From Natronorubrum tibetense GA33 (GTDB lineage Archaea > Halobacteriota > Halobacteria > Halobacteriales > Natrialbaceae), in the NCBI RefSeq assembly GCF_000383975.1, contig NZ_KB913019.1:1-64000 (forward strand): DNA of 64,000 nucleotides, written 5' to 3'. Shown one piece after another: positions 8,839 to 10,961 of this stretch. The notes under the pieces were generated by a model. That model made no database searches. It had not been told where the DNA came from and saw nothing but the letters and a program-made list of their open reading frames with translations. Numbering within the stretch: position 1 is the first letter of the stretch; the number at the start of each line of letters is the position of its first letter. Both the position numbers and the translations under genes were made by a program.

Positions 8839-9164
8839 CGAATGTCAACTACTACGGTATTCCGTGTTCTCAACCAGAGGCGGTGGACGACCAGTAGGCC
8901 ACTCTGGCAGGCACCGATAAAGCGCGAGTCGCTGGCCGCCAGTTCCGGAACAGTACGAAGCACGGCTGAGTTCGATCACTTCGCTCATCCGCTGGTATCT
9001 AGTTCCAAATCGCTGAAACGCCGTTATAGGCGAAGAGGGAAGCTACCGACTTCGCTGACTCAATCTCTTCGGCCCAGCAACGGGTTTCGTCGACAGTTTT
9101 CGAGTGGAATTGCAACCGCCTTATTCAATTCTGACGGTCGAAAAACGTCACGCCCCGGTGAGAT

Positions 9165-9520
9165 AATAGGTACAATAGGTACACTATTTGCAATAGGTAG
9201 ATGGATTCTGGGCCTAATCAGCGTCAATAGGTAGAATAGATGGAATAGATATAATAGGTACACTATTCAAAATAGGGAAAATAGCTAAACGAGGTAGAGT
9301 ATCTCCAAAACCCCCAATAGACGACGATACTGCCACCAATGGCTTACCTAGAGCAGGCAAGATAGGCGGAGTAGAGTTAATCGGTTGGGCAGGCACAGCA
9401 GCACCAATAGGTACAATAGGTCCAACACCTACAATAGGTACTTGACCTATTACAGGCATTTCACCTATTGCAACTACCCCACCTATTGGGCCCTCAGTAG
9501 GTAACACTAAGAAGATAGAA
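9165..9520. repeat. 9-bp-phased ATAGGTA repeat array: candidate partition centromere or iterons
   Basis: Heptads of consensus ATAGGTA recur at fixed 9-bp steps. One block lies at 9166, 9175 and 9193. A second block keeps the same register for nearly 300 bp: 9227, 9236, 9245, 9254, 9272, 9281, 9290, 9317, 9362, 9371, 9407, 9416, 9434, 9497 and 9515, with degenerate units in between. From about 9425 units in the opposite orientation (TACCTAT-like) keep the register at 9443, 9461 and 9479, giving an inverted pair AATAGGT-5 bp-ACCTATT at 9433-9451. The array lies directly 5' of parA. Type Ib partition loci with ribbon-helix-helix CBPs use comparable contiguous heptad arrays. The base composition is more AT-rich than the neighbours. 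Confidence 0.8.
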
Positions 9521-9603
9521 TTAGATGAGGTCAGTAATGGCTGAAATAGAAGGTGCCGGAACAATAGGCACCTACCGTACCGCACAAACGGGTGATTCTA
9601 TCA

Positions 9604-10491
9604 ATGCAAACAACAACTGAACCACGCGCCGTGAGCGTGGTCATCCTGAAAGGTGGTGTCGGCAAATCAACGACTTCGATGAACCTCGCGCGCCAGCTCG
9701 CAGAGCACGGCAAAACGCTCTACGCCGACCTCGATCCGAACGGGCACGCGACGAACGGCCTCGGCTTCGGAGACGCCTATCAAGGCGACATCAATCTCGG
9801 CGATGTCATCCTCGAGGGCGACGCGACGCCCCAGGATCTCATCCGATCGACCGAGCACGGGTTCGATCTGCTTCCGTCCTCGGATACGCTCGAGGACGTC
9901 GAAAAGGACCTCGCGGGCGCGATGCAGGGTTCGGCACGAATCAAATCGAAGATCGTCGATCCGCTGCTCGGGACCGAGTACGAGTACGTGGTCTTCGACT
10001 GTCCGGCGTATCCGGGGATGCTCAACAACAACGCACTGGTCGCGACAGGGAACGTCGTCATCCCGATCGAACCGGGCTCGAGTGCGATCGGCGGCTACAA
10101 GCGAACTATGGAGCGGCTGATCGAGCCGGCCCGGGAGTACATCGACGTCGACGTCCTCGCGGTCGTACCAAACAAGCTCTCGGATCGGATCGATCAACAG
10201 ACCGAGGACCGAGAGTTGCTCGAGAACCTGAACAAGGCCACCTACGAAGTAAACTCCGGACAACCGCTGCAGGAAGCGGTGCCGAACTTCGCTCGGATCA
10301 CGGCCGAGGAGTTCGACGCGATCGACGCCGGTGAGATGACGCCACCGAAACCGGGGATTCGCCACCGGTCTGCGCTTTCGCGGTCGCTCCAGCACAACCA
10401 ACCGCTGCAGGATTACGATCCCGAAAGCGATCAGATCCCATACTACGAGGAACTCGCCGAGATCGTCGCGGCCGGAGGGATCGAGCGATGA
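9604..10491 (+). CDS. parA: ParA/Soj family partition ATPase (295 aa)
   Basis: This Walker-type ATPase drives plasmid or chromosome partitioning. The deviant Walker A motif KGGVGKST (K16, K21) is at the N-terminus, followed by YADLDPNGHATNGLG (Walker A' region) and VVFDCPAYPGMLNNNAL (Walker B). There is no N-terminal DNA-binding HTH, as in small type Ib ParA proteins. The frame is open from ATG 9592, but ATG 9604 (MQTTTEPRAVSVV) fits family starts. The gene overlaps the next gene by 4 bp (ATGA) and is preceded by the 9-bp-phased array, which makes a complete parS-parA-CBP arrangement. Confidence 0.9.
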   Translation: MQTTTEPRAVSVVILKGGVGKSTTSMNLARQLAEHGKTLYADLDPNGHATNGLGFGDAYQGDINLGDVILEGDATPQDLIRSTEHGFDLLPSSDTLEDVEKDLAGAMQGSARIKSKIVDPLLGTEYEYVVFDCPAYPGMLNNNALVATGNVVIPIEPGSSAIGGYKRTMERLIEPAREYIDVDVLAVVPNKLSDRIDQQTEDRELLENLNKATYEVNSGQPLQEAVPNFARITAEEFDAIDAGEMTPPKPGIRHRSALSRSLQHNQPLQDYDPESDQIPYYEELAEIVAAGGIER

Positions 10492-10961
10492 GCAATCCGT
10501 TCGACGATCTCAAAGCGGACGACGGGGAGCCGGTAGAGTCAGAAGATAAGACTAACTCCAAAACCGAACCGGAATCGGGGTCGGAACCGGAACAGTCTGA
10601 CGACGAACCGTCGGCGGAAGAGTCGGCCACCGAAAGTACGGACGGCGAATCGGGCACGAATTCTGCAGCGGATCGAGACGAGGCGGACGACCGATCCGAG
10701 ACACCGCTGACGCCCGCAGAAGTCGGGCCAGCATTCGAGTACAGCGAAGTACAGCAGAAACCGTTCTACGCGCGCACCGAGACGGTAAACGAGTTCGAAA
10801 ATCAGATTCGAACGACGATCGTCCCGACGCTCGCCGGAGCGGAGATTCTCGATGAAGAAACTCGAGAGATACACGACGCAGTGCTTCGACTCGCGAACGA
10901 GAATCCGGAACGGGTTGCCGAACTCGTGCTCGAGGAACGGCGACAGGCGGGAAATCAATAG
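10488..10961 (+). CDS. Small acidic partner of ParA, putative centromere-binding protein (157 aa)
   Basis: The first 75 residues are a disordered, Ser/Glu/Asp-rich tail. The C-terminal 80 residues are folded: FEYSEVQQKPFYARTETVNEF, then two predicted helices ending in NPERVAELVLEERRQ. Similar short proteins follow parA on many haloarchaeal plasmids. The PFYARTETVNEFE segment could be the strand of a ribbon-helix-helix fold followed by helix 1, but this is a guess from pattern. The start overlaps the parA stop (ATGA), so translation is coupled. By position it should bind the upstream repeats and stimulate ParA. AATAGG/CCTATT sites also occur just downstream (about 10984 and 11011). Confidence 0.7.
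   Translation: MSNPFDDLKADDGEPVESEDKTNSKTEPESGSEPEQSDDEPSAEESATESTDGESGTNSAADRDEADDRSETPLTPAEVGPAFEYSEVQQKPFYARTETVNEFENQIRTTIVPTLAGAEILDEETREIHDAVLRLANENPERVAELVLEERRQAGNQ

Follow-up and report, generated by a model that had tools for sequence, protein, structure and literature searches.

Short units related to AATAGGT recur every 9 bp directly upstream of an operon for a ParA-type ATPase and a small partner protein on C3, a 238,792-bp replicon of a 4.93-Mb haloarchaeal genome. We take this array as a putative centromere plus operator, because its anatomy matches that of type Ib partition loci, most closely that of pSM19035. As judged from its sequence, the array very probably (about 0.82) serves a type Ib-like ParA partition system as both centromere and operator, with the partner as the predicted binding protein. 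The window analysed here comprises the first 64,000 nt of the replicon, and the locus contains the following features.

9165..9198, plus strand: array block 1, AATAGGT units at 9165, 9174, and 9192 with 9-bp pitch, in phase 3 mod 9 and offset relative to the main lattice
9226..9442, plus strand: array block 2, forward units of the main 9-bp lattice, exact at 9226, 9253, 9406, 9415, and 9433, with degenerate cells between them
9433..9451: convergent pair, imperfect palindrome AATAGGT-ACTTG-ACCTATT
9445..9487, minus strand: inverted ACCTATT units at 9445, 9463, and 9481, falling on the main lattice if the TAG·GTA pseudo-dyad is taken as the site centre
9496..9502, plus strand: final forward lattice unit, AGTAGGT
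9563..9576: proximal palindrome AATAGGCACCTACC, candidate operator or core site, approximately 28-41 bp 5' of the parA ATG
9604..10491, plus strand: parA, Walker-type ParA ATPase (AAA_31, E=8e-29), without an N-terminal helix-turn-helix extension
10488..10961, plus strand: partner gene, 157 aa, proposed centromere-binding protein, overlapping parA by 4 bp

The ATG at 9604 is preferred to the GTG at 9592 as the start of parA, and the AAA_31 match begins at residue 9 of 295. Elsewhere in the window, a heavy-metal P-type ATPase-like frame (287-2204) is broken into two frames that overlap, 287-1591 and 1248-2204, which looks like the result of a frameshift or an assembly error.

The first-pass annotation described a phased array at this position and proposed autocorrelation at lag 9 as a check, by which the array is borne out. 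Across 9160-9500, identity at lag 9 reaches 0.49, compared with 0.26±0.025 in 1000 dinucleotide shuffles with a maximum of 0.33 (z=9.2). Lags 18, 27, and 36 carry harmonics, and no other lag shows a similar signal. Between approximately 9160 and 9580, the 9-bp spacing is followed by 11 exact AATAGGT/ACCTATT units together with several degenerate copies, and units with at most one mismatch number 16, against 2.0 expected. The degenerate cells belong to the same pattern. When scored with a position matrix derived from other loci, for which lattice positions were taken regardless of their sequence, the cells in 9226-9442 with at least two mismatches outscore out-of-register positions (p=9e-9). 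The matrix yields the core [T/C]AG[G/C]T[A/G], which is a pseudo-palindrome, TAG·STR.

Between 9226 and 9502, all units, including the degenerate and inverted ones, fall on a single 9-bp lattice. The uniform register originally assigned to the whole array (position mod 9 = 2) holds for ATAGGTA at 9227-9440, degenerate cells included, and fails for block 1, which is in a different phase, the distance from 9192 to 9226 being 34 bp, or 7 mod 9. The orientation indeed flips near the parA-proximal end, where the three inverted units are located, and the palindrome at 9433-9451 exists in imperfect form. The inverted units appear off-phase if the left end of the 7-mer is used as reference, and lie on the lattice if centred at TAG·GTA; they keep the register because the core is pseudo-palindromic. 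The same geometry is found at 56 loci of the family. Of 79 neighbour pairs on the same strand, 75 are spaced by a multiple of 9. Of 46 pairs in which an inverted unit follows a forward one, 39 are offset by 3 mod 9, which is the value expected from a single lattice with sites centred at TAG·GTA. Judging from this geometry, the lattice would appear unbroken across the inversion to a protein that binds symmetrically, probably as a dimer.

The arrangement extends far beyond this replicon. The partner is present in 75 of the 125 genomes of the family, and in the family loci examined parA is located directly upstream of it, with the array before parA. The comparison of loci, in line with the earlier suggestion to look for such arrays on other haloarchaeal plasmids, reveals a 9-bp lattice upstream of the parA-partner operon across Halobacteria: 9 is the best pitch in all 60 loci of the family, and outside it 37 of 40 loci of the class give the same result. 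In the controls, parA coding sequence and flanks, the usual mix led by codon multiples is obtained, with no constant pitch of 9. Counting two AATAGGT pairs as an array, 49 genomes of the family possess both array and partner, 4 the array only, 13 the partner only, and 59 neither (Fisher p=8e-18); the 13 are accounted for in part, as some of them carry another motif. Of 391 sampled Halobacteria genomes, 191, about half, encode a relative of the partner. Such relatives are also found on named plasmids of Natrinema, Haloterrigena, Natronococcus, Natrialba, Haladaptatus, Halobaculum, and others, where they are mostly annotated as hypothetical proteins. The matching plasmid records are haloarchaeal, and many are several hundred kb in size. 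Carriage by viruses was rejected, as phage records and viral contigs gave no match.

The pitch stays at 9 bp while the core motif differs between lineages. More distant relatives, with ParA approximately 36-50% identical, often have other units, such as CTNAG-type, TAGCTA, TCTACT, or TCGTAC. The same genome harbors a second parA-partner locus on replicon C4 (2300-4225), whose 9-bp lattice (z=9.6) is composed of the palindromes GTTCGAAC/GTGTACAC, so that two partition loci of this genome differ in motif, with AATAGGT on C3 and these palindromes on C4. In five other genomes with two systems, little or no motif is shared between them. Motif distance correlates with partner distance when ParA is controlled for (partial r=0.31, p=0.001), and with ParA distance to the same degree when the partner is controlled for (partial r ~0.31); thus, the covariation does not say which protein reads the DNA. 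Tentatively, and at somewhat below even odds, these loci may represent a class-wide system in which pitch and not sequence is conserved, an undescribed DNA-binding family outside the ribbon-helix-helix fold coats a 9-bp near-palindromic lattice, and motif switching keeps replicons apart. Upstream of a different parA of the same genome, at C5:1-215, TGAATCA/TGATTCA units form an array spaced at 8 bp (z=4.7), which suggests that haloarchaea have a second type of partition system with its own pitch.

The partner is composed of an acidic N-terminus, which is probably disordered and begins with a conserved MSNPFDDL, and a conserved C-terminal domain with the consensus GPAFEYSEVRQxPLYAR followed by helices. 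Only P4 and D7 are invariant in the N-terminus, which contains no conserved arginine that could act as an arginine finger. The AlphaFold monomer model, based on 36 sequences, has a pLDDT of 81 and three helices, with an uncertain strand-like part before them. Searches of Pfam, NCBIfam, and PDB sequences, and of Foldseek with the AlphaFold model, returned no significant match, known DNA-binding proteins included. A ribbon-helix-helix binder, as in the known heptad centromeres cited in the first-pass annotation, thus finds no backing in domain, structure, or fold searches, and hhalign of the partner against an alignment of haloarchaeal ribbon-helix-helix proteins gives a probability of 0.1%. The monomer model itself neither establishes this fold nor rules it out, because the ribbon of these proteins forms only in the dimer. 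We propose that the partner is a member of an undescribed family.

Two further elements, which the first-pass annotation did not note, accompany the array. In nearly all AATAGGT-type loci of the family, a palindrome near AATAGGTACCTATT is located approximately 30-45 bp 5' of the parA start, with nearly invariant sequence and position, and such a placement would be suitable to block transcription initiation. In addition, satellite arrays of 3-6 units, mostly in the same direction, are found elsewhere on the same replicons. Their unit intervals are multiples of 9 in 66 of 76 cases, and they lie far from the operon, in most cases with no partition gene nearby. The C3 satellite contains five units at approximately C3:154,650-154,710, outside the window. 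It is positioned directly 3' of a gene for an archaea-specific SMC-related protein (ASRP), with RdfA nearby; a link between satellites and ASRP was rejected, as it is absent at 20 other satellite regions. In seven genomes the partition locus resides on a chromosome-size contig, and in several of these the satellites cluster within some hundred kb. Three of the seven have one satellite approximately 4.5-6 kb from an orc1 gene. Such loci may correspond either to an integrated megaplasmid or to a true chromosomal segregation system.

Three other explanations of the array have to be weighed against a centromere. The array might chiefly serve transcription, as a long autoregulatory operator of the parA operon without a role in segregation, which would agree with its position directly upstream of parA and with the nearly invariant palindrome before the start codon. 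We consider this unlikely, since the satellites are located far from the operon, mostly with no partition gene in the vicinity. Moreover, it is unusual for an operator to require some 30 units spread across 300-600 bp, which counts against a pure operator. The distinction is in any case blurred in type Ib systems, whose operators and centromeres have overlapping functions (PMC5016525). It is more improbable still that the units are iterons of a replication origin bound by a replication initiator. Iteron arrays are common near plasmid maintenance genes, and the proximity of some satellites to orc1 genes points in the same direction; however, the sole orc1/cdc6 gene found on C3 is located at 81.5 kb, 72 kb off the array, and in the loci examined the array goes together with the parA-partner pair, with copies at several places on a replicon.

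The least probable explanation, which we regard as very remote, attributes the 9-bp periodicity to a tripeptide repeat in a gene translated from either strand. The minus strand does contain an open frame of 123 aa (9214-9585), but any of the six frames stays open through the region in only 5 of 56 homologous loci, and a Pfam/NCBIfam match is absent. The nucleotide core varies freely at constant pitch and the inversions remain on the lattice, and no single frame spans blocks 1 and 2 because of their 34-bp offset. A translated tripeptide-repeat gene with the array as its 3' end, named earlier as a possible refutation, is thus rejected.

For the centromere plus operator that we favor, the following mechanism can be envisaged. 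Copies of the partner, probably as dimers, would bind side by side on the 9-bp lattice, and the orientation of the units would matter little, as the sites are pseudo-palindromic. A step of 9 bp corresponds to approximately 309 degrees of B-DNA twist, so neighbouring copies would step around the helix, and 63 bp would accommodate about 7 sites. The assembly of partner and array would engage ParA-ATP on the nucleoid. Simultaneously, it would sit on the parA promoter and repress the operon, with the proximal palindrome probably serving as the operator. The satellites may provide extra loading sites on the replicon. Coexisting replicons, sharing the architecture and differing in motif, could in this way keep their partition complexes apart.

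The array was initially proposed as a centromere of a new type. Its role as a partition site with a 9-bp pitch is strongly backed by the operon-linked lattice across the class, its non-coding character, and the satellites, whereas "new type" goes too far, and we rather view it as a variant of the iteron-type plasmid centromere. Centromeres of this kind have been described before; what appears to be new is the pitch, the partner family, and the combination of constant pitch with variable motif. Repeats of 7 and 10 bp are on record for known systems, in which a pitch of 8 bp also occurs, and the open-access literature searched yielded no description of a 9-bp lattice or the partner family. A 2016 review listed among its open questions the form of archaeal plasmid centromeres, their clustered or dispersed layout, and the way in which haloarchaea partition a chromosome and megaplasmids simultaneously (PMC5120986). 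Our analysis offers a testable answer to the centromere question, with a DNA component composed of a 9-bp lattice and satellites, together with two proteins, in approximately half of the sampled Halobacteria. Different motifs at the same pitch provide a plausible basis for the compatibility of coexisting replicons, and the locus may give a practical handle for stable haloarchaeal vectors.

Among known partition systems, the chromosomal-type ParB-CTPase uses the 16-bp parS consensus TGTTNCACGTGAAACA, which has no match in the array, and no ParB domain was matched in the partner by Pfam/NCBIfam. Type Ib loci have parA first, a small partner with an unstructured N-terminus, direct and inverted repeats upstream, and extra sites (PMC5016525). 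The C3 locus shares with them a ParA-type Walker ATPase without an N-terminal helix-turn-helix domain, a small partner gene directly 3' of parA in one operon, an order kept in the loci examined, and, as a repeat architecture, direct and inverted repeats upstream of the operon. Type Ib partners also have an arginine finger in a flexible N-terminus, where the C3 partner shows no conserved arginine, and a C-terminal ribbon-helix-helix domain, for which the C3 partner gave no match in the searches above.

The closest likeness is to the type Ib system delta/omega/parS of pSM19035, in which the omega protein is a ribbon-helix-helix protein. Both combine a ParA-type ATPase with a small DNA-binding protein, which is putative here, and both have short units in either orientation and several arrays per plasmid. 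The parS arrays of pSM19035 consist of non-palindromic 7-bp units that overlap promoters, and at least four contiguous repeats are needed (PMC9499535). Haloarchaeal satellites have 3-6 units. Unlike the contiguous 7-bp WATCACW repeats, the C3 array has a 9-bp pitch and a different, pseudo-palindromic core; in addition, ParA and partner are encoded in one operon, the partner is not detectably ribbon-helix-helix, and the system is archaeal. TP228 ParF/ParG/parH, also type Ib, has a parH pitch of approximately 8 bp and differs from the C3 locus in pitch, motif, and protein, the haloarchaeal partner having no conserved N-terminal arginine. It is similar in its spaced repeats, direct and inverted, before a parA-first operon, with extra ones in the operator region, and in its small partner with an unstructured N-terminus, which is predicted here; in TP228, ParG is the binding protein (PMC5016525).

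Two archaeal systems complete the comparison. In SegAB, the parA-type gene overlaps the gene for a small DNA-binding protein, much as on C3, and the sites are found in the promoter and scattered on the replicon (PMC12284271). SegB reads single 13-bp palindromes, TCTAGASTCTAGA, and is not known to use a lattice like the 9-bp one described here. Allowing three mismatches, TCTAGASTCTAGA has four matches in the 64 kb, against 11 by chance, and none in the array. The AspA-ParB-ParA system of Sulfolobus pNOB8 likewise serves archaeal plasmid partition, and uses three proteins; its putative centromeric site spans 23 bp, and a protein helix runs along the DNA as a superhelical coat (PMC5120986). In contrast, the haloarchaeal locus has two proteins, and its lattice is written in the DNA.
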